DNA of 64,000 nucleotides, from contig JAOZHX010000017.1 in assembly GCA_026014665.1 (NCBI GenBank), positions 372,001 through 436,000 on the forward strand. Reading direction: 5' to 3'. Source of the DNA: Candidatus Bathyarchaeota archaeon. GTDB taxonomy: Archaea > Thermoproteota > Bathyarchaeia > Bathyarchaeales > Bathycorpusculaceae. Position numbers and translations under genes: made by a program. Below, piece after piece: positions 48,762 through 63,868 of the stretch; position 1 is the stretch's first letter; each line of letters begins with the position of its first letter. The notes beneath the pieces were generated by a model. It did no database searches. It was not told the DNA's origin and worked only from the letters and a program-made list of their open reading frames with translations.

Positions 48762-51700
48762 CTACTTAAAATCAAACAGCGAAGCCTGCTTTGGTTTTTT
48801 ATTATCAAACATGGCAGCTATCTCTTCCTTAACTAACTCCATACGCTGAGTGTAATACCTAGGCAAACCATACTTATCCACAAGTTGCTGAGCCGCAACC
48901 AAGTACTTCTCGATACCTCCACGATAAACCGTCAACGTCAACTTCCCCCCACAAAACGTACATTTCCCCCTAAGGGGCAAACGACGATACTTTTTATTGC
49001 AAGACTTACAACGAAAACCCTGAGTGGAAAAAGCACGCATGTTCCCAGCGATGTCACGCATAAAATGCGTATTTAAAACCTTCAACGCCACACGCCTAGC
49101 ATCGACAGCCTCAATCTTCTCCCCCAAAGCCAACTGCATATCCAACTTATCAATCATGGACTTAAATTCCTTGTAAGAGCTGTTGGCGTTGCCAAGATTA
49201 ATGTTAGTCACAGGAGTAGTGTACTGGAAACCCTCAAACTGCGCCTCAGTATCAAGCCTATGACTAATAACATCCATAACAGCACTCACTGACCTAGCAT
49301 CCGACTTCTCAAGCGTCTTCTTGTAAAACTCAAGCGGATAAGACGCATCAACATCAAAATCATGAGCCTGCCGCTGAACTTCCTTAGTATTAACAAAAGG
49401 AATCAACAGAATCGGCGCATCCATAATACCGCCAATCTGCGCAGGCAAATACACACGAGAAAAATTAATCAGCGTATCAAGCGCCAGCATTATAGCATCT
49501 TCATCACCGTCACAATCCCGACGCTTAGCAGAATGCCAAACAGGATGTGCATAAATCACATTGCGATCCGTAAAACCGACCACCCTTCCCAAGATGCAAG
49601 CACAGGTGTGAGGCGCTAAGCCGAAAATAAGTTGCCCCACGATGTCTTCAGCCTTTTTAACATTGTAGAACGCAGGCAGCTTGTAAACTCGCACCAGCAA
49701 GTCATCGATAAAATTGGCAATTTGAACAAAGTATTCTCCAGCACGCCATGGAATCACAACATCTTGAATCTTTAACTCTAAAACCTGATCTGGATCCTTA
49801 AGCGGCAAACCATGCATGTCAGAGACATAGCCCATTTGCCTAAGCTTCTCCAAAGACACCCCAATTTCACATGGCTTAATATGCGTCAACGGCGCATTGG
49901 TAGCGTCAAAGCGTATGGTGCCATCCTTGTAAACCGACAACTCATACCTTGCTCTCAAAATGCCTTTTTCAACCAGTTCAGGCGTTTTATCCAGATTAGT
50001 TAAACCCTTTACACCCCGTAGAACTTTTGGCACCTGACATCCAAGCGCGCTAGAGGCATTTTCAAGCAATTCTTTGAAATTAACCGGTTGACGCTGGTAC
50101 TGAACACCCTCAGTCTTGCAGGTAGGACAACCTGAATCTTTAACCACTCTGCCGCAACGCGGACAACTCTTCTCAGGCACTGTTTCAAGCCCGCATTCAG
50201 CGCACTTTACCCTCACAGTATACGTTTTACAGTTAGGACATTTACGCCTAGCTAACTCCACAAACACCGAATCCTTTTTTGCCGCCTCCAAAAGATCCCT
50301 ATGAGCACCACCAGCCAAACTAACTGGAAAAAGCACATGAACCAGAGGCTTCATTTCACGGCGCTTAGCCTTCTCAGGACGCCCCATGCGTGCCCCAACG
50401 TAAGTAGGAGCTTTATCCTTAATTTGCACACCACTAAGCAGGCTTAGCAATTCCAGCACAGAATCAGCATGCGCAGTTACTGTTTGACCATAGCCAACTG
50501 TGAAAGCAAAAGCAGCCGCATCCTCACCAATTATTCGGACTTTACCGCCGACTATCTGATGAGGCACAAGGACCTTTCTCAATAAGCCCAAAACTGCCAA
50601 GTCAGCTTCACCCAAAACCCTTTGGGCAAGCCCATCTTTGAGGTTAACTTCACAGAAACTCAACCATTTATTGAGCAACTGAACCTCCTGAACGTTCAAT
50701 AAGCTGCTCCAAAAGAAAAGACAATTAGGCGCCAACGGTACACCCAAACTCTGACTTAGAGCAATTGCTTCTTTAACAGTAGGCTTGTTCACGAAAGGAT
50801 CAGCAATGAAAGCAGACAACCTTTCTGCAGGTACCTTTGTAGCCTCAGACGCACTGGCATAATCAAAACCAAACTTAACTTGAAGAGCATTCTGGAGATC
50901 CTTCACCCACCATTCTTCAACATACCCAGAAGGCGGAAGAGCTTTGCTACAGTACAGAAAATCACCAAACCCGATGAGTATGTCACCTAAGAAAAGAATT
51001 TTCTCAACCTTTCCCTTAACTTGAAGAAAATTCTCAAGCGTAACTCTGACTACCGACTTATCCTTAAGCAAGACAACAGGTGGCTCAAGACTGTCCACGG
51101 GAACAGCAACCCCGCCCTTGCCAGGCAACTCTAAACGCATCTGAGTGCCAGCAGCAAGAAAACTCTCGACTACAAACATAGTCGCTGGATGGATACCTAC
51201 AGCTGTAAGCCCAGTGTTGCGTGAGCGGCCATACCTTAGCCTAAAGCCCCCCCGAGTCGATGGAAAAGAGAAAATGGGACGACCAGCGATCACGTCATCC
51301 ATGAAACCGCCCGATTTTTTCTCGGATTTCTTTTTGAATTCTTTTAACCAGTCCCAGCCTTGGAAGCCAATTTTATCAACGATCACAAAAACTTTTTGGG
51401 CACGACCAACAATGCCATCATTTACAACCCGAAGCGCACCACCTCGCACACGATTGGTTTCCACTCGAGGCAAATTTCTATAAGAAGAAACTTCAACAGG
51501 ATCCGACTCTGTACCTGTTACCTCGACTGGAATCAGATTCAGCGCTTTGCGAAGTTCTTCGTCGGGAATATGGTATTGAAAGCGCCCCACTTGACGCTCG
51601 TAAAGTCTAAGTTCTTCAACAAAGCGAGAGATCTCTTCCTCTGTGGGCTTATACTTATCCAACCCAAGCTGTCGCCGCACAAAATCACCCACCACTAAGG

Positions 51701-52163
51701 TCAAGGCTTGATCGGTTCCACCCGCAGAACGAATGGGCCCAGCAAAGTAGATTGCAAGGTAGCGTGTTCGGTCAGCGTTTGTCTTAATCTTAACTTGGGC
51801 TATACCTTGGATGGGTGCAGCGGTTAAGCCTTCAGTGAAAATCGCTAGCGCAGTACGAATTGCTTGTTCAGCTGCTTGCTCAGGCTCCATATGAGTGAAT
51901 TTGCCCAAAGCAATTTCTTCTGCAACTTTGAAAGCGATTTCCTCTCTTTGCATTTTAGTGCTTAAATCCCTTATGCTGTGAGCAACTCCTTTTGGTCCAA
52001 CCAACCCTTCGACTAGATCAGCGATATCTTGGGCTATCATGCACTCAGTTTTCAAGGCTGGATCCAACCCTTTGGATCGAGCGCTGTCGCTGATTGCATA
52101 GAGTTCTTTAAGTTGGTTCTCTAGGGTCCGAATGTAGGTTTGATAGCCGTTGCTAATTTTCAA
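48762..52163 (-). CDS. polC: DNA polymerase D large (catalytic) subunit DP2
   Basis: 1133 residues, uninterrupted (no intein). Double-psi barrel active site RRDCDGDEDAIML near residue 881 and FDVDASYP near 940; zinc ribbons CPNCKTYTVR...CAECG...CPRCG...CPTCK (about 640-690) and CKSCNKKYRR...CTFCGG near 1050. The end, KQASLFDFK, is a PCNA-binding PIP box. With DP1 it is the replicative polymerase of most archaea other than Crenarchaeota. Confidence 0.98.
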   Translation of the reverse strand: MKISNGYQTYIRTLENQLKELYAISDSARSKGLDPALKTECMIAQDIADLVEGLVGPKGVAHSIRDLSTKMQREEIAFKVAEEIALGKFTHMEPEQAAEQAIRTALAIFTEGLTAAPIQGIAQVKIKTNADRTRYLAIYFAGPIRSAGGTDQALTLVVGDFVRRQLGLDKYKPTEEEISRFVEELRLYERQVGRFQYHIPDEELRKALNLIPVEVTGTESDPVEVSSYRNLPRVETNRVRGGALRVVNDGIVGRAQKVFVIVDKIGFQGWDWLKEFKKKSEKKSGGFMDDVIAGRPIFSFPSTRGGFRLRYGRSRNTGLTAVGIHPATMFVVESFLAAGTQMRLELPGKGGVAVPVDSLEPPVVLLKDKSVVRVTLENFLQVKGKVEKILFLGDILIGFGDFLYCSKALPPSGYVEEWWVKDLQNALQVKFGFDYASASEATKVPAERLSAFIADPFVNKPTVKEAIALSQSLGVPLAPNCLFFWSSLLNVQEVQLLNKWLSFCEVNLKDGLAQRVLGEADLAVLGLLRKVLVPHQIVGGKVRIIGEDAAAFAFTVGYGQTVTAHADSVLELLSLLSGVQIKDKAPTYVGARMGRPEKAKRREMKPLVHVLFPVSLAGGAHRDLLEAAKKDSVFVELARRKCPNCKTYTVRVKCAECGLETVPEKSCPRCGRVVKDSGCPTCKTEGVQYQRQPVNFKELLENASSALGCQVPKVLRGVKGLTNLDKTPELVEKGILRARYELSVYKDGTIRFDATNAPLTHIKPCEIGVSLEKLRQMGYVSDMHGLPLKDPDQVLELKIQDVVIPWRAGEYFVQIANFIDDLLVRVYKLPAFYNVKKAEDIVGQLIFGLAPHTCACILGRVVGFTDRNVIYAHPVWHSAKRRDCDGDEDAIMLALDTLINFSRVYLPAQIGGIMDAPILLIPFVNTKEVQRQAHDFDVDASYPLEFYKKTLEKSDARSVSAVMDVISHRLDTEAQFEGFQYTTPVTNINLGNANSSYKEFKSMIDKLDMQLALGEKIEAVDARRVALKVLNTHFMRDIAGNMRAFSTQGFRCKSCNKKYRRLPLRGKCTFCGGKLTLTVYRGGIEKYLVAAQQLVDKYGLPRYYTQRMELVKEEIAAMFDNKKPKQASLFDFK

Positions 52164-57072: not shown

Positions 57073-58602
57073 TTACAACTTGACTTTTTCTTGGCTGCGC
57101 AACATTCTTAATTTTTCATCCATGATAGATAGGCTTTGGAAGTCGCGCAGACCGTGATCTATGGGTGGGTGCTTTTCTAAGTACTCTGGGTAGTGGGTTA
57201 CTCGTATTGGGACCGCAAATTTTATTTTTGGTTCAGAAATAAGTAAGGCTTCACCGACGTCGAGCATCTTAATTTCGGTTTCACTATACTCCATATAGGG
57301 TGTGTTTTCTGTTAGATACATTCGGTCTTTTTTCAATTCTGTTTTCATGATGACTTTTGTCCATAGTTCGGCGAAAACGTCAAAGTTAATACGTGATGGT
57401 CGTGGTGTAACAGCGTTGAGTCCGACGCGGTACTTGCGGTATGTTAGGGCTATGTCTGAAAAGATTGTGCGGGGTTTATTTGGGTCTAAAAATTCATGCG
57501 CTTCCTCCAATGTTATTAGAAGAGTTGGGAGTTTAAGCCATTCATCGAAGTTGCTCTCCCAAGTGCGCTTATAGTGTTCAGCAATGGTTGAGGAGGATAG
57601 GCAGACAACGCGGTTTTGGTCTTCTGAGCGCATGCCTGAGATATCGACTAGACAGCTTACGCCGTTGCATATGTTTTGAAGAGCGCTATCCACAAAGGTG
57701 TAGTCTGAAGAGGGGAATAGTTCACCCGAAAGCGAAGATAGCTTCTGCATCAAAGCTTCAACAACAACTTTTTGTGCACGTACACCAACGTTGCCCTCTG
57801 AGCGGTATAGCTCCCTGGAGTTTTCAATCCAATTAGCACCAAAATGCCTAAACAGTTGCCAAGCTAACCGTCGCTGAGGCGGCTGAATGTCGGGAAAAAG
57901 CATTTCTAACTTTCCAGGAGTGATTGTTTTTAACCCGACCGCCATTTTCCCATCCTGACCCGAGTAATACTGGATTCTTGTCGGGAACAGCGGGTGGTGT
58001 TTGAGGCCTTTTTGAGTTTTGATCTCTTTACCTTCTAGAAGCTGCCCGGCGAAGTCGTAGATGAGAGCAACGGTTCTTGGGCTGTTATCGATTATTTGAG
58101 CATTTATAACCAGCTCAGTGTTGGTTTTGCCCGAGCCGGTCATCCCAAACATCCCCATCATCCGGGGGATAGCATCGATGTTTATACCCACAGAGCTCAA
58201 CAGTTGGTTTTCTGAGCGTAGCCGCCCAACTTGGAGCTCACCGGTAAGGTTAAGGACAGCACAATCTTCATCTGTAGCAGCATAGACTTGATCACGGTAA
58301 TTCGGATTAAAGGTGGGAGAACGGATGCTGTCACCTCTTTTTTCTAGAAACAACACTGCTTCGACGCTGCGGTAAGCTGAGTATGGCCCGAATGCTTCTT
58401 TCCCCTGCGCCTCTCGAAGTTGCTCTATAGTTTCTAAGGTGGAACTGCTCTCAGAGTTAACGACTCGAGCGTAGAAACTTCGTTTATCAGATTCGATGCG
58501 TACGATTTGACCAAACGATAATGTCACATTAGTGTTCACTAGGAAAGTGACGGCGTCACCTTTGGTTCCACACACAAATCCTATCGAGTTAGTATTGGGC
58601 AT
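57073..58602 (-). CDS. herA: HerA helicase/translocase
   Basis: 509 residues from ATG 58602, chosen because GAGAGGGAGA lies 7 bases upstream; a TTG six codons earlier is the alternative. P-loop GMTGSGKT, a HAS-barrel N-terminus, LITLEEAHEF Walker B and the C-terminal AVTPRPSRINFDVFAELW with arginine finger. Hexameric DNA pump that works with NurA in end resection for homologous recombination. Overlaps nurA by 14 bases. Confidence 0.95.
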   Translation of the reverse strand: MPNTNSIGFVCGTKGDAVTFLVNTNVTLSFGQIVRIESDKRSFYARVVNSESSSTLETIEQLREAQGKEAFGPYSAYRSVEAVLFLEKRGDSIRSPTFNPNYRDQVYAATDEDCAVLNLTGELQVGRLRSENQLLSSVGINIDAIPRMMGMFGMTGSGKTNTELVINAQIIDNSPRTVALIYDFAGQLLEGKEIKTQKGLKHHPLFPTRIQYYSGQDGKMAVGLKTITPGKLEMLFPDIQPPQRRLAWQLFRHFGANWIENSRELYRSEGNVGVRAQKVVVEALMQKLSSLSGELFPSSDYTFVDSALQNICNGVSCLVDISGMRSEDQNRVVCLSSSTIAEHYKRTWESNFDEWLKLPTLLITLEEAHEFLDPNKPRTIFSDIALTYRKYRVGLNAVTPRPSRINFDVFAELWTKVIMKTELKKDRMYLTENTPYMEYSETEIKMLDVGEALLISEPKIKFAVPIRVTHYPEYLEKHPPIDHGLRDFQSLSIMDEKLRMLRSQEKVKL

Positions 58603-59632
58603 CCCATATCTCCCTCTCAAACGGGTGTCTTACACCATGAAGTTCATCTGCAAAATTGCAAGAACGTTCTTCTGTTCGCAAAATCTCAAGCAACCCTGCT
58701 TCATTTAATTTTTCCTCTACTTGATCATGATAGTTCAAAAGCATCGAATCGGATGGAGCCGAGAATTCATGCGCTAAAAAAAGGCTGATAGGATAGCCTA
58801 CGCAACGTGGATCCTCGGAAACGGAGGTTAACGGCGATAAGACTTCGCCGATGTCCTGCTTGGTTAAGTAGTCCATGACATCGCAGCGGAAGACGTAAGG
58901 GCTATCGGAACATAGTTTTATCAGGGTAATATCACCATAGAGACCGTTTTTCTTGTCCGCACACTCAACAGGATGATAGAACCAAATATCATTATGGGAC
59001 AACGCCTGGGCAGTCGCCATGAAATCTCGGCCCTTTTCATCTCGCAGAGTAGGGGAGTTCTTGCTTATAGCTAGAAGGCGTATGTTTAGTTTTTGGCATT
59101 TATCGTAAAGTGAAACTCGGAAGCGCCTTTCCCCACCAAAAACGCCACTACCATCTAGCAGTAGGTAGACGGCACGATCAGCAGTATGGTCGTGGCAGTT
59201 TCGGTCCTTTTGATGGTCATAGTACAGGTCGATTCTATTTTGCAGTACGTTTAGTGCCATTTGACTCTCGAGCTCCATTCGAGTGCCTTTTAGGTAATTA
59301 CTACGACTGTACCCATCTCCTATCGCAGTGAAGATGCGTTCGTCAAACCCCCAATCTACCATCCGTTCTTTGACTATAACATAGGAAGAGCGCATGAGAT
59401 AGATTCCCCAGTTGTTGGCTCTCTTTAAGGTTCGTGTGGAACAATCAACGGCGATAAAACTCCCTTCGAAGGCAGAGATTTTTTTTAGAGGCTTTATGCG
59501 TGAGGCTTCAGGTTTTTGGTTCATCAGTGGTTCATCTTTTGTCTCATCATCAATGGCTAATCTGCCTTTTTCCACATAGGTTCGAAGCTTGTATTGCATT
59601 TGTACAAAGTCTACTTTAAGGCTACTATTCAT
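58589..59632 (-). CDS. nurA: NurA 5'-3' nuclease
   Basis: 347 residues. Acidic active-site segments IAVDCSTRTLKRANNWG and LLLDGSGVFGGE; C-terminal His in LLNYHDQVEEKL. Partner of HerA, encoded directly downstream with overlap. Residues around NCHDHTADRA are encoded by a copy of the ATGGTCGTGGC motif (59184 onwards). Confidence 0.92.
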   Translation of the reverse strand: MNSSLKVDFVQMQYKLRTYVEKGRLAIDDETKDEPLMNQKPEASRIKPLKKISAFEGSFIAVDCSTRTLKRANNWGIYLMRSSYVIVKERMVDWGFDERIFTAIGDGYSRSNYLKGTRMELESQMALNVLQNRIDLYYDHQKDRNCHDHTADRAVYLLLDGSGVFGGERRFRVSLYDKCQKLNIRLLAISKNSPTLRDEKGRDFMATAQALSHNDIWFYHPVECADKKNGLYGDITLIKLCSDSPYVFRCDVMDYLTKQDIGEVLSPLTSVSEDPRCVGYPISLFLAHEFSAPSDSMLLNYHDQVEEKLNEAGLLEILRTEERSCNFADELHGVRHPFEREIWDAQY

Positions 59633-59697: not shown

Positions 59698-60129
59698 TTA
59701 CTTGATACGTTGCTTAATAGCCGCTTGGGGAATGTTTGTCGCCGTTTTATACTTTATGTTGTTTGGTCCACCTGTCCTAAGCAGCATACCCTTGTTTGCC
59801 ATTCTTGAAAGGTATGTCGAAATAGTGCTAAGGCTGACGGGTTCTTTTAGTTCCTGCTCATAAACCGATTGAATATCCTTGGAAGTAAACCAGATTAAAG
59901 GAAAGTTCTTCTGAATAACAAGCTGAACTTTCTCAAATCGCGAAATAAACCTATTTTGCAAAGTCACCCCAGTTTTGACCGTTGGCTCTTCATTTGGTGC
60001 CCCACCTAACAATTCAACGAGATCTAATAGGCGAAGGGCTTTGTCGCGGGTAACTTGACCTTCAAAGGCAATAGTATATCGATTTCCTTCACTATCGAAC
60101 AGCTCCACGCGTATTTTCCGAGCCGGCAC
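59698..60129 (-). CDS. helix-turn-helix protein upstream of nurA
   Basis: 143 residues. N-terminal beta-hairpin (IRVELFDSEGNRYTIAFEG) and C-terminal winged helix (FTSKDIQSVYEQEL, SLSTISTYLSRMANKGMLLR). Sits 65 bases before nurA on the same strand and borders the candidate origin. Not a recognised family; it may regulate herA-nurA or bind the origin region. Confidence 0.7.
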   Translation of the reverse strand: MPARKIRVELFDSEGNRYTIAFEGQVTRDKALRLLDLVELLGGAPNEEPTVKTGVTLQNRFISRFEKVQLVIQKNFPLIWFTSKDIQSVYEQELKEPVSLSTISTYLSRMANKGMLLRTGGPNNIKYKTATNIPQAAIKQRIK

Positions 60130-60322
60130 TTGTTGGCACCTTAAGGTTGTTCACAAAGTTTACACTTCACATCTTATAGCTGTTATGGTGAAGTGAGGTA
60201 AAATAAAAAAGGCTATTTTGTGTTGAAATTAGCAAAGCGGTTAAATTTGCAAAGATTTTAGAATAACCAGCTTCACCGTTTAGTGAATAGGGAAAAAAAA
60301 TTTGGTTACAGCTTGGTTATGC

Positions 60323-60345
60323 TTTTCGAGTAGAAGTGAAGGGGT
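60323..60345 (+). promoter_or_regulatory. ORB-like element 1
   Basis: TTTCGAGTAGAAGTGAAGGGGT-type sequence: half-dyad core, short A-rich part and GGGGT, as in archaeal origin recognition boxes. Its CGAG...GAA core resembles element 2. Confidence 0.55.
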
Positions 60346-60572
60346 CGCTTATTCACTAGAAGGAGGCAGGGAAAGAGTAATTTAATAAAAAAGGAGCTTA
60401 GGAAACCTACAAATTTAGTGGTAATTCGCATGTATTCACAGAGTTGTGAAAGTAAAGAAAAAAAATCACTGACCTTGAGAGGGGATTGGGATTTACTTTG
60501 TAGATATAAAATCAATATACAATGTTAAAGTTCATTCTCAAGATTTTGTTTGGTTAAAAAAGATGCTGTGGG

Positions 60573-60597
60573 ACACCCCTTTATTTCCGCTCGAAGC
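60573..60597 (-). promoter_or_regulatory. ORB-like element 2 (inverted)
   Basis: On the minus strand: CTTCGAGCGGAAATAAAGGGG followed by TGT. It matches 17 of 21 positions of a Pyrococcus/haloarchaeal-style ORB recalled as GTTCCAGTGGAAACAAAGGGG. G-tract points away from the AT-rich core. Confidence 0.65.
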
Positions 60598-60757
60598 TTC
60601 AAAGCAAAAAATAAGTGTGTTTGCGATTAGAAAAATGTTTATTGATAAAAAGTCTAATTTCTTTGATAATAATTGTTAATATACAAATTCTTGCTTTAAA
60701 TAATCAGAGTAGATATTAACTTAATTAACTATTTGTTTATTTTTTACAGCCAATTTT

Positions 60758-60782
60758 TTTCCAATAGAAACTTTGGGGTGTG
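60758..60782 (+). promoter_or_regulatory. ORB-like element 3
   Basis: TTCCAATAGAAACTTTGGGG followed by TGTG. The dyad TTCC-x5-GAAAC and the GGGGT are well kept. Oriented opposite to element 2, with the AT-rich stretch between them. Confidence 0.65.
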
Positions 60783-60927
60783 CGTTTTCTCTTTCAAGTG
60801 TTAGTCGTGACCTGCTTTAATCCCTTTTTAGGATTGTTGTACTCTAAAACCAGTTTTTTGTACTGTCGACTTTATTTGTTCCATAAGAAATAACGGTTGT
60901 GCCTCTGTAGAGTTAGGGGGAAGAATC

Positions 60928-62166
60928 GTGGGAAATTCAAGCGTACTTGATGATGTGTTCGATAGTTTCGTAAACGGTGTAAGATTGTTTAAAGACCGTG
61001 AAGTTCTCAGGCATGATTATATTCCGGAAAAACTTCCCCACAGGGAAGACCAAATACGTTTGTTGGGTGCAACCGTTGCTCCAGTTTTAAGGGATGCTAG
61101 ATGCTCAAACGTATTTATCTATGGGAAAACTGGTACAGGAAAAACTGCTGTAGCAAAGTTTGTCCTAAGCCATTTGGAAGCAAAAGCGAAAGAGTATGGT
61201 GCCAATGTACGATTTTGTTATATTAACTGCCGCATGACAGGGTCCGAGTATCGAGTTTTCGCCAGTTTAAGTCAAAGTGTAGGGTTATCCATACCCTTTA
61301 CGGGTTTATCAGTGGGAGAGGTTTTTGATCGATTTCGGTCAGGATTGGATTCGTATAGAATTAATTTCATCATAGTTCTGGATGAGGTTGATGCTTTGAT
61401 TAAGGATCGGGGAGATGCTTTCATGTACGAGTTGACGCGGATAAATGAAACATTAAGCAAAAGCAAGGTATCCATCATTGGCATATCTAATGATTTACGT
61501 CTAAAAGAGTTCCTTGATCCCAGAGTATTTAGCTCTTTGAGTGAAGAGGAGCTTGTTTTTCGGCCATATGATGCTGGAGAATTAAGGAATATCTTGCTTG
61601 AGCGCTCAAAGTTGTCTTTTCAAGAGGGAGTTCTTTCCGAGTCTGCGTTGAGTATTTGCTCAGCTCTGGCTGCTGCAGAACACGGTGACGCTAGAAGGGC
61701 TTTGGATTTGTTACGTGTTGCTGGGGAAGTTGCTGAACGGGAAAACGCTAAACTGATTACTGAAGAGCACGTTCGCCAGGCTGAGAAACATATTGAGCAT
61801 AATCGGGTAATTGAAGCCCTCAAGAATTTGACGTTACATTCTAAGCTTGTTTTATTAAGTGTTTATCACCTTAACAAACCAAGTGCTACGACAGGCGAGA
61901 TTTATGATGTTTACAACGAGCTCTGTGGAGAATTCGGTGCTGGGTTACTTACGCAACGTAGGTTGGGAACCTTAATCAACGAGTTGGACTCCATGGGTTT
62001 AGTGAACGCAAAAGTTGTAAGTATGGGTCGTTATGGTAGAACTAAAAAGATTAGGTTGGAGATTTCCAGAAGCTTAATTCGGGACGTCTTTGAGAGTGAT
62101 GGCCGTTTCAGTCGACTATTTGAGTATTCGGCTGTAGCTTGCCGCAAAGATAAAAAAGAAACTTGA
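60928..62166 (+). CDS. cdc6: origin-binding initiator Orc1/Cdc6
   Basis: 412 residues, AAA+ ATPase with C-terminal winged helix. Walker A GKTGTGKT (66-73), Walker B LDEVDAL with Asp152-Glu153, sensor 1 GISND and sensor 2 HGDARRALDLL. Winged helix contains LLTQRRLGTLINELDSMGLV. GTG start behind AGGGGG with 7-base spacing. Lies right of the candidate origin and presumably binds its ORB elements. Confidence 0.97.
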   Translation: MGNSSVLDDVFDSFVNGVRLFKDREVLRHDYIPEKLPHREDQIRLLGATVAPVLRDARCSNVFIYGKTGTGKTAVAKFVLSHLEAKAKEYGANVRFCYINCRMTGSEYRVFASLSQSVGLSIPFTGLSVGEVFDRFRSGLDSYRINFIIVLDEVDALIKDRGDAFMYELTRINETLSKSKVSIIGISNDLRLKEFLDPRVFSSLSEEELVFRPYDAGELRNILLERSKLSFQEGVLSESALSICSALAAAEHGDARRALDLLRVAGEVAERENAKLITEEHVRQAEKHIEHNRVIEALKNLTLHSKLVLLSVYHLNKPSATTGEIYDVYNELCGEFGAGLLTQRRLGTLINELDSMGLVNAKVVSMGRYGRTKKIRLEISRSLIRDVFESDGRFSRLFEYSAVACRKDKKET

Positions 62167-62175
62167 CTTGCTCTG

Positions 62176-63753
62176 TTAAAGGAATGAAAGTATCGTGGTT
62201 TCTAAGGTTTGCAGGTTGACTACAGGAACTTTTCCTGGTGTAGGAACTAATCCAAGTTTCTCCATGTAGTCAGTTTGAGATTGCCATCCACCTGAGTTAA
62301 CCACTAAGACACCTCGATAATTACAGTATCCAAGTACATGGACATGTCCAGCATGGAAGATGTCTGGTACCTTATCGATGACAAGGTAATCTCGGTTTTC
62401 GGGTGACAGCATGGTTTTTCCGCCATAAACCGGTGCCAAATGTCGACTTTGCATAAGAAGCCTCATAGATTTCTCTGGATGGTCGTGATCCATGCCTGGG
62501 ACAACAGAAATTATATCGTCCAAGCTACGGCCATGGTACATAAGAATTTCTATGCCATGTATGTTTAGCAAGCATGGGCTGCCTACTGAATGTATGTTCT
62601 TTTTGCCTTTGAATGCAGTCAGATAACTTTCTGGTATAGCTGGTTGAGGAAGGGATTTGCGGGAAGCATCATGATTTCCCGGTGAAATTATTATTTCGAT
62701 GTATTCTGGTATTTTTTCGAAGTACTTTGAGGCAAAGTCGTATTGTTTGTGGACGTCGCGGATGGTTAATTCTTTTTGTTGCCCTGGGTAGATTCCGATG
62801 CCGTCAACGATGTCTCCTGCGACAAGAAGGTATTTTACTCGACCAGCGATCTGGCGCATTTCGTCGTTTCCGTATTTGCCCCTTAACCAGAGTATAAAAC
62901 GTTTGAAGGCTTCTTTTTGAAATTTGGTGCTACCTATATGGATGTCTGAGGTAAGGACTGCGTAGACAGGTTCTTGGGCTCGCTGTTGCGGTTTTCGGCC
63001 GATTTCTGGGAAAATTATGTCTTCGGCTAAAAGGAGGTTGCTGCGTGTTTTAATGACGGCTAGACAGATAATTTGGTCAGCCAAGAGCATGAGCGCTTTC
63101 TTTTTGACTTCCTCAGGTGCTTTTTGTGGTATGAGCACGGTTGCGCTACCTTGAAGATCCTCTACCGAAAGAATAGTATGATTCTTTGAATCCCGCTTCT
63201 CAGTTAGCATACAGATAATTTTTAGCTTAGTTTTTGGCGGTGATTTGAGAGCTTCAATGATGGGCGTGGCGGCCTTAACATCTATTCTTTGCCGGAAGAT
63301 GCGTTCGATTCGCTTGAAGCGATCTTGGAAATATGTTAGGTATTCTTCTATTGTGCCGTTTGAGCTAAGCTTGCCAGTAGCATCTTCAAGGATAGTGATT
63401 TTTGCAGGGATGTCTTTAGCAAAGGGGTAAAACTCGGTTGTGCATGGTTGCTGGTTCCCTGCGGATGGTCGTGGTAAATCCATCACTCCATCGATAGCTT
63501 GAGGTTGAGGCGTTATGTCTTGGCGGGGACTGGTTATCTTTGGCTGCTGCATTAGGGATTCAAGAAAGGGTTTCTCTATGAACATGGGTTTGTCTTTTAA
63601 TTCTTCGATCCGTTTAAGCGCTAAGTCCACGATGACACAGGGATCGTTGGTTCCACAACTTTGGCTTAGGAACTCGAAGGCTTCGCTGTTTAGCATGTAG
63701 CCAGCTGCGATTGCTGCTTCGATTGCCACCTGGAGTTTTTCCTTTGTGCTCAT
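62176..63753 (-). CDS. polB: DNA polymerase D small subunit DP1 (3'-5' exonuclease)
   Basis: 525 residues from ATG 63753 (MSTKEKLQVAIEAA); a TTG five codons earlier is possible. N-terminal helical domain, OB fold, then a metallophosphoesterase: LTSDIHIGSTKF, LVAGDIVDGIG, SPGNHDASRKS, GHVHVLGY. Proofreads for DP2. Convergent with cdc6, 10 bases apart, as near the Pyrococcus origin. A variable linker near residue 95 contains an ATGGTCGTGGTAAAT copy (63465). Confidence 0.97.
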   Translation of the reverse strand: MSTKEKLQVAIEAAIAAGYMLNSEAFEFLSQSCGTNDPCVIVDLALKRIEELKDKPMFIEKPFLESLMQQPKITSPRQDITPQPQAIDGVMDLPRPSAGNQQPCTTEFYPFAKDIPAKITILEDATGKLSSNGTIEEYLTYFQDRFKRIERIFRQRIDVKAATPIIEALKSPPKTKLKIICMLTEKRDSKNHTILSVEDLQGSATVLIPQKAPEEVKKKALMLLADQIICLAVIKTRSNLLLAEDIIFPEIGRKPQQRAQEPVYAVLTSDIHIGSTKFQKEAFKRFILWLRGKYGNDEMRQIAGRVKYLLVAGDIVDGIGIYPGQQKELTIRDVHKQYDFASKYFEKIPEYIEIIISPGNHDASRKSLPQPAIPESYLTAFKGKKNIHSVGSPCLLNIHGIEILMYHGRSLDDIISVVPGMDHDHPEKSMRLLMQSRHLAPVYGGKTMLSPENRDYLVIDKVPDIFHAGHVHVLGYCNYRGVLVVNSGGWQSQTDYMEKLGLVPTPGKVPVVNLQTLETTILSFL

Positions 63754-63868
63754 GTGCCTTGCGCCCAAGCCAATGCTGGTTTTTTATGTTTAGGCTGTAT
63801 GCTTTTGAGTTATTTACTGTTTGTTGTTTGCAAGTGGAATTTACAAACGGCGGCTGGATTGGCACTTC

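Follow-up and report, generated by a model that had tools for sequence, protein, structure and literature searches.

The 798-bp gap at positions 60130–60927 of the window (the 64,000-nucleotide stretch of bathyarchaeal DNA analyzed here), which separates the gene for a 143-amino-acid winged-helix protein on the minus strand from a divergent orc1/cdc6 gene on the plus strand, is, judging from its sequence, very probably a chromosomal replication origin (oriC). Archaeal origins are generally described as ORBs together with an AT-rich element. In addition to the ORBs, known to bind the initiator, this origin has a further set of boxes with the core TTCACA, which appears to be read by a small DNA-binding protein common to many related archaea. 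Taken as a whole, the gap is probably an oriC of the Orc1-1 type to which another, widespread protein also binds, at boxes cognate to it.

On the contig in question (C15 of the window's own genome, G000, of which the window takes up 372001–436000), the orc1/cdc6 gene (60928–62166, +) matched the model TIGR02928 with 421.6 bits, above the cut-off, and its product matched the Pfam domains Cdc6_lid and Cdc6_C; because its closest solved structures were 2qby_A (Cdc6 homolog 1, E 6e-115) and 2v1u_A (E 5e-105), we assigned it to the Orc1-1 type. It is followed by the gene for the small subunit of DNA polymerase D (DP1; 62176–63768, −; NCBIfam NF003118, 485.4 bits with a cut-off of 445), and the gene for the large subunit lies at 48762–52163. 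Downstream of the winged-helix gene (59698–60129, −) are an ORF at 58589–59632 (−), which by eye encodes a NurA-like protein and had no Pfam match, and one at 57073–58620 (−) encoding a HerA-type ATPase (DUF87) that scored below cut-off with the NCBIfam HerA and CedD models; their shared strand suggests that the three genes form an operon. The genome also carries a second orc1/cdc6 paralogue, 31% identical (L002, G000:C1:94202–95305), which is possibly an Orc1-2-type regulator and not an initiator. We considered the DNA upstream of this paralogue as a further origin and set it aside, having found by eye one weak TTCCA-like site and no clear ORBs.

The original prediction had placed three ORB-like boxes in the gap, and all three were recovered: ORB1 at 60323–60346 (+), ORB2 at 60574–60596 (−) and ORB3 at 60757–60782 (+), with mean conservation across 44 aligned loci of 0.90, 0.83 and 0.87, respectively. 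The inner two had been described as inverted around very AT-rich DNA, and indeed the G-string of ORB2 points away from the 159-bp spacer between ORB2 and ORB3 (60598–60756), which is 79.9% AT (54.7% for the window) and is a candidate duplex unwinding element. Between these two ORBs there is also a conserved, AT-rich block at 60652–60712 (GTCTAA..TTTGATAATAATTATTAATATA..CAGAGTAT). Absent from the original prediction was a mini-ORB without a G-string (TTCCAnnnGAAA, 60878–60892, +; conservation 0.82). Just 5′ of it, ahead of orc1, lies a TATA-like CTTTATTT (60870–60877), which is a putative promoter element of orc1, and the mini-ORB may serve orc1 autoregulation.

For the alignment we collected 46 distinct loci with both genes, in all but two of which the gap measured 728–885 bp. 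The two exceptions, L049 (2169 bp, 8 TTCACA) and L072 (581 bp, 1 TTCACA, with a same-strand gene), were left out, which gave 44 regular loci including the window; L049, from Candidatus Bathycorpusculum sp. Co191P3bin4, has the sole long gap in the genus set. Mean column conservation was 0.86 for the three ORBs versus 0.59 at the 658 unboxed positions, and none of 20,000 random placements reached the ORB value. The expectation that the boxes would be conserved in relatives was thereby borne out. A profile built from the non-window rows ranked ORB3 (33.2 bits), ORB1 (32.0 bits) and ORB2 (20.6 bits) first to third in 455 kb of the window's own contig, with the next match at 10.5 bits. The three ORBs of G006, a training row, likewise ranked first to third in 0.8 Mb. 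In 1.1 Mb sampled from G048, the sequence of which was outside the training set, the top three matches (28.9, 24.5 and 20.1 bits; next 15.1 bits) lay upstream of orc1 in the same forward-reverse-forward order as in the window. A looser ORB pattern (up to three mismatches) found ORB3 and ORB1 in the window's own genome, missed ORB2, and gave four isolated matches elsewhere versus five for a reversed control. Compared with the common ORB motif published with Ori-Finder 2, ORB2, ORB1 and ORB3 had two, three and five mismatches, respectively, such that ORB2 and ORB1 were the best two matches in the 64 kb and ORB3 tied with five scattered ones.

The original prediction had also looked to a GC skew minimum at the gap, which did not materialize: there was none in 455 of the 463 kb of the window's own contig, nor did cumulative skew have a minimum at the origin in the half-sampled contig of G006. 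In G048 (a single contig, about half sampled) the cumulative minimum fell at ~1.70 Mb, some 50–70 kb from orc1 at 1.748 Mb, which by our own estimate would happen by chance about once in 18 cases; we set skew aside as uninformative and gave no weight to the G048 result. The joint outcome named as counting against the candidate origin, unconserved boxes together with extremes elsewhere, did not arise, and the candidate stands supported. The oriC reading derives from the conservation of the ORBs and from their specificity within the sampled DNA, that of G048 included. The gap combines several of the features by which an archaeal oriC is recognized, with an adjacent orc1/cdc6, at least two ORBs (a TCCA..GAAA core plus a G-string), an inverted pair around an AT element, and conservation.

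Among the hexamers in the 44 gaps, TTCACA stood out most from expectation (285 occurrences versus 27.7 expected), exceeding every ORB word, and every one of these gaps had at least four copies. The window's gap contains nine TTCAC/GTGAA sites, of which those at 60283 and 60336 were not conserved as boxes. The conserved ones are boxes a (TTCACA, 60150–60155, +; conservation 0.96), b (TTCACA, 60166–60171, +; 0.94 over 60165–60171), c (GTGAA, 60188–60192, −; 0.95 over 60186–60192), d (TTCAC, 60272–60276, +; 0.95 over 60271–60276), e (TTCAC, 60352–60356, +, just past the ORB1 G-string; 0.82 over 60351–60357), g (TTCACA, 60435–60440, +; 0.97) and h (TGTGAA, 60445–60450, −; 0.90 over 60444–60450). 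Box f (60425–60429, +; 0.91 over 60424–60429) is degenerate in the window, where it reads TTCGC, and is mostly TTCAC in relatives. Boxes b and c form a 22-bp dyad and boxes g and h an 11-bp dyad, and across the 44 loci inverted boxes were spaced by 22 bp 49 times and by 11 bp 37 times, a recurrence that suggests dimer sites. Within the b–c dyad lies a TATA-like CTATAAG (60173–60179, −), presumably a promoter element of the winged-helix gene. The original prediction did not include the array at 60150–60450, although the extra dyads that it listed are members of this box family, not recognized as such; the dyad at 60163–60195 proved conserved, as did the right arm of the other (60350–60358), whereas the left arm (60281–60289) did not.

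The densest TTCAC cluster was the origin in all three sampled DNA sets (9 versus 6, 7 versus 6, and 9 versus 5 sites), the narrowest case for this shorter word being G048, in which the next-best cluster had 6 and the origin 7. We also considered TTCACA as the site of a genome-wide regulator and rejected the idea, given an overall density of 0.40–0.68 per kb and next-best clusters of 2–3 TTCACA versus 4, 5 and 7 at the origins.

Very probably the protein that reads the TTCACA boxes is the 143-amino-acid winged-helix protein, to which neighborhood, predicted fold and covariation (recognition-helix residue T102 in the window) all point. Its gene is single-copy in the window's own genome, and its AlphaFold2 model (mean pLDDT 70.8, pTM 0.49) has a hairpin-helix segment at the N terminus, followed by a winged helix; the nearest folds found by Foldseek were the MecI/BlaI, RosR and Fur repressors, one of them at E <0.001. 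The window protein matched no Pfam family above cut-off and no NCBIfam model; with the MecI/BlaI family Penicillinase_R (PF03965) it scored 18.5 bits, below the cut-off of 22.6, and 30 of 31 homologues matched that family weakly (E up to 1, best 1e-4). Matches to the protein were found in 100 of 151 genomes of the class and, across the sampled genomes of the phylum (class included), in 184 of 300, with f28, f36, f37, f40, f42, f44, f45, f53 and f57 among the families absent from the matches in those 300 genomes.

Of 40 class regions taken from the 106 matched genomes, 38 were usable after two that were cut short (L194 and L226) were dropped. The winged-helix gene was divergent beside orc1 in 28 of the 38; TTCACA was present in 27 of these 28 gaps (5.9 per kb, compared with 1.2 per kb over 1 kb in the 10 other regions), and 19 of the 28 had ORBs above 10 bits in the forward-reverse-forward order. 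Eight of the 10 regions without an adjoining gene belonged to f22 or f24, in which the winged-helix gene sits elsewhere. In four f22 loci (L261, L262, L263 and L265) it lies ~3.3 kb from orc1, and a TTCACA cluster and 1–2 ORBs lie beside it and not beside orc1; in L264, three boxes lie beside the gene, where the contig ends. In f24 the gene lies 4–5 kb from orc1, and a TTCACA cluster and one strong ORB adjoin it in L266, L267 and L269, with one box and one ORB at the gene and two ORBs at orc1 in L268. Members of f24 also have ORBs with few boxes upstream of orc1 (G095 has ORBs at both places, and G117 and G159 at orc1). Origin prediction anchored on orc1 could miss the clusters of ORBs and TTCACA boxes that lie 3–5 kb away (L261–L263 and L265 in f22; L266, L267 and L269 in f24), and the boxes can locate origins that have become separated from orc1. 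In f35, f39 and f50 the winged-helix gene is farther off still, at 18 kb to ~500 kb, and the cluster stays with the ORBs upstream of orc1, leaving at most one TTCACA within ~600 bp upstream of the distant gene. The two remaining regions of the 10 are L204, where ORBs occur but TTCACA does not and the genome gave no match to the winged-helix protein, and L215, where ORBs are accompanied by four TTCACA and the genome, 66% complete, likewise gave no match. Dense box arrays accompany ORBs, and ORBs also exist without boxes.

Among 30 phylum loci, the gene was divergent beside orc1 in 11 and on the same strand in one, and the start of the contig cut five. No ORB above 10 bits was found upstream of orc1 in eight of the 30, though the upstream DNA was full-length there, and the layout is therefore not universal. 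The TTCACA array is thin in f30, all seven loci of which (L289–L294 and L297) have a strong ORB at roughly −214 to −224 relative to the winged-helix gene; in four of the seven there are 5–8 TTTACA per 900 bp, possibly another box variant.

Seven gaps from f29 and f61 carry a different box, with 9–10 copies of TTAACA (about 1 expected) and 0–2 of TTCACA; the f29 genomes are single contigs and include G265, which we take to be Nitrosopumilus maritimus SCM1. Chance TTAACA in AT-rich DNA was discarded as an explanation, the count being reached by none of 500 dinucleotide shuffles in each of the seven gaps. In a set of 94 loci (containing at least one genome twice, as L067 and L197, and with boxes counted in the 700 bp upstream of the winged-helix gene for f22, f24 and f30), residue 102 of the protein was T in 80 of 81 TTCACA loci, the remaining one (L228) being cut off before that residue; in 10 of 11 TTAACA loci it was I, L, V or A. 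The exception, L199, had T102 with four TTAACA and three TTCACA; L205 and L208, both with T102, had tied box counts; and L203, with V102, had TCAACA and not TTAACA as its commonest hexamer, making it a weak third case of a box and residue change. Residue 102 comes third in the recognition helix (100–112) of the AlphaFold2 model. It was the sole position of the 143 to separate the groups, in that at most 5% of the 77 comparison rows shared a residue with either switched group; T stood in all 77 of these rows, which were grouped by family and not by box count, with L203, L284, L285, L287 and L296 left out. No other position shared as much mutual information with the box (0.444, versus 0.407 for the runner-up). 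Comparison of the sequences shows that the boxes exist and are conserved, that they keep company with ORBs, and that residue and box covary.

The f9 proteins have A102 and their origins TTAACA; because f9 lies within the window's own order, with clade support of 100, its switch is separate from that of f29 and f61. In 17 loci fetched after the rule had been seen, f9 agreed in three of three, and L292 and L295 (T102, at least three boxes with a clear majority) agreed as well; L291 contradicted the rule (T102 with two TTAACA and no TTCACA), L286 was tied, and the others had tied counts, under three boxes, or a gene that does not adjoin an origin. On a tree built without the helix columns (16 near-duplicate rows and L228 were dropped before it was built, and another 17, with tied counts or under three boxes, before labelling), the box changed four times and the residue three times. 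Two independent box switches were well supported, in addition to a weak one (f12). The pairs on supported branches numbered two, the residue changing the same way in one and not differing in the other; two independent pairs being too few for a sign test, we claim no significance.

At origins that the gene does not adjoin, with boxes counted in up to 700 bp upstream of orc1, residue 102 agreed with the box in all six cases read: G415 (V102, gene on another contig; TTAACA:TTCACA 7:1), G407 (M102, gene 3 kb away; 6:0), and G239, G192, G185 and G272 (T102, gene at least 18 kb away; TTCACA:TTAACA 3:0, 5:1, 5:0 and 5:1, respectively). This match argues for action in trans. Four further origins were covered for their boxes only: that of G344, with ten TTAACA and no TTCACA, and three more (one from f46 and two from f54) with few boxes of either kind. 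A paired element that we tried and did not retain, TGTTAAC-N9-TGTTAAC, was exact in eight of nine f29 genomes, without an exact copy outside the origin (the G270 copy is close to the end of a contig with orc1 at its start), and in the ninth it lay beside the gene with one mismatch. It was not found at f61 origins, and at one mismatch a reversed control was equally or more frequent.

We infer that replication starts in this gap, and that the winged-helix protein binds the boxes, dimerizes and has a role in initiation. Orc1 made next door would bind ORB1–3, and the inverted ORB2 and ORB3 would bracket the AT core where, by analogy with Sulfolobus oriC1, the duplex would be opened and MCM loaded. 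The ~8 TTCAC(A) boxes, which extend from the winged-helix gene beyond ORB1 and stop ~120 bp before ORB2, would be a second module. The 143-amino-acid protein would bind them, probably in dimeric form at the 11- and 22-bp inverted repeats, and residue 102 of its recognition helix would read the third base of the box. The protein would most likely build an accessory nucleoprotein platform around ORB1, helping or timing initiation, and also control its own promoter.

Such an accessory role in initiation, as opposed to segregation or autoregulation only, is the one toward which we lean. That the protein binds the boxes of a true origin for chromosome segregation, with the array as an origin-proximal, centromere-like site, seems unlikely to us. 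A cluster of short boxes close to an origin, bound by a small winged-helix protein, would fit a parS-like site, and the centromere-binding AspA is among the Foldseek matches (E 5e-3), but a ninth place in a list of generic winged-helix repressors is weak evidence, and ORB1 has boxes to either side. Those same repressors, with MecI/BlaI/RosR as the best fold matches, would suit an origin in which the TTCACA boxes are only the operator of the winged-helix gene, and perhaps of orc1 too, as would the position of the gene's TATA-like element within the first dyad. However, boxes occur as far as 300 bp from the gene, and where the gene is at least 18 kb away (f35, f39 and f50) they remain by the ORBs; we think this reading improbable. 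We give very little credence to the gap being inactive as an origin, with the ORBs as Orc1 operators for orc1 autoregulation and the boxes regulating the divergent gene: the skew does not mark the site and the mini-ORB overlaps the orc1 promoter region, but an autoregulatory role sits poorly with three ORBs that include an inverted pair around an 80% AT core, 130–600 bp upstream of orc1, with the joint presence of ORBs and boxes ~3 kb off orc1 in f22, or with the like layout at the N. maritimus-type locus.

A stronger version of the accessory-initiation reading, on which we are nearly evenly divided and tip slightly toward doubt, would make the winged-helix protein a second sequence-specific origin-recognition factor, needed with Orc1 for initiation and ancestral to much of the phylum (Bathyarchaeia and, by extension, ammonia-oxidizing archaea), with the array as its cognate site and coevolution through one recognition-helix residue. 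In the literature that we covered, ucm/UBP is the one other origin motif with a known protein; it was reportedly acquired by the Desulfurococcales and Sulfolobales, and the authors who discovered it close by raising the question of analogous proteins at the origins of more divergent archaea (PMC12141716). The winged-helix protein is a concrete candidate of this kind from a large and for the most part uncultured section of the domain, and it comes with a putative binding site, a likely specificity residue and a cultivable type of host (ammonia-oxidizing archaea). In the titles and passages of open-access literature available to us, we found no description of a bathyarchaeal replication origin, and we found no open-access paper that links the box words with archaeal origins.

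Haloarchaeal origins have ORBs around an AT-rich region beside orc/cdc6 (PMC4010727). The window resembles these orc/cdc6-adjacent origins in that its ORBs flank an AT-rich region beside the initiator gene. To our knowledge, no TTCACA-type array is known from haloarchaeal origins. Sulfolobus has a winged-helix protein, WhiP, encoded beside oriC3 (PMC4010727), and WhiP itself defines that origin (PMC12141716). The window likewise has a winged-helix gene beside its origin but differs, by description, in having Orc1 and ORBs, and WhiP was not named among the PDB structure matches listed for the 143-amino-acid protein. Sulfolobus oriC1 adjoins orc1-1 and has three ORBs, with ORB2 and ORB3 inverted around an AT-rich element (PMC12141716). 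The window shares with oriC1 the orc1-1 adjacency, the three ORBs, the inverted pair and a second, non-ORB motif with its own protein, but oriC1 has one 11-bp ucm inside the core, whereas the window has a multi-copy array outside it, and UBP is beta-rich, whereas the window's candidate models as a winged helix. The ucm motif itself was not found above chance in the 44 gaps, where the mismatches of its best matches were like those in shuffled sequence.

A single mapped origin is reported for N. maritimus in a review (PMC4010727). By analogy with that species, the origin of another organism was placed after the last annotated gene and before the ORB repeats and cdc (PMC5797428), a placement that fits the layout of both the window and f29. 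At the presumed N. maritimus locus (G265) the ORB-like boxes are, by eye, in tandem, with an additional inverted one. As in the window, the winged-helix gene there is divergent to orc1, and the DNA between them (~480 bp in G265) contains ORBs and a box array, but the box is TTAACA and residue 102 is V.
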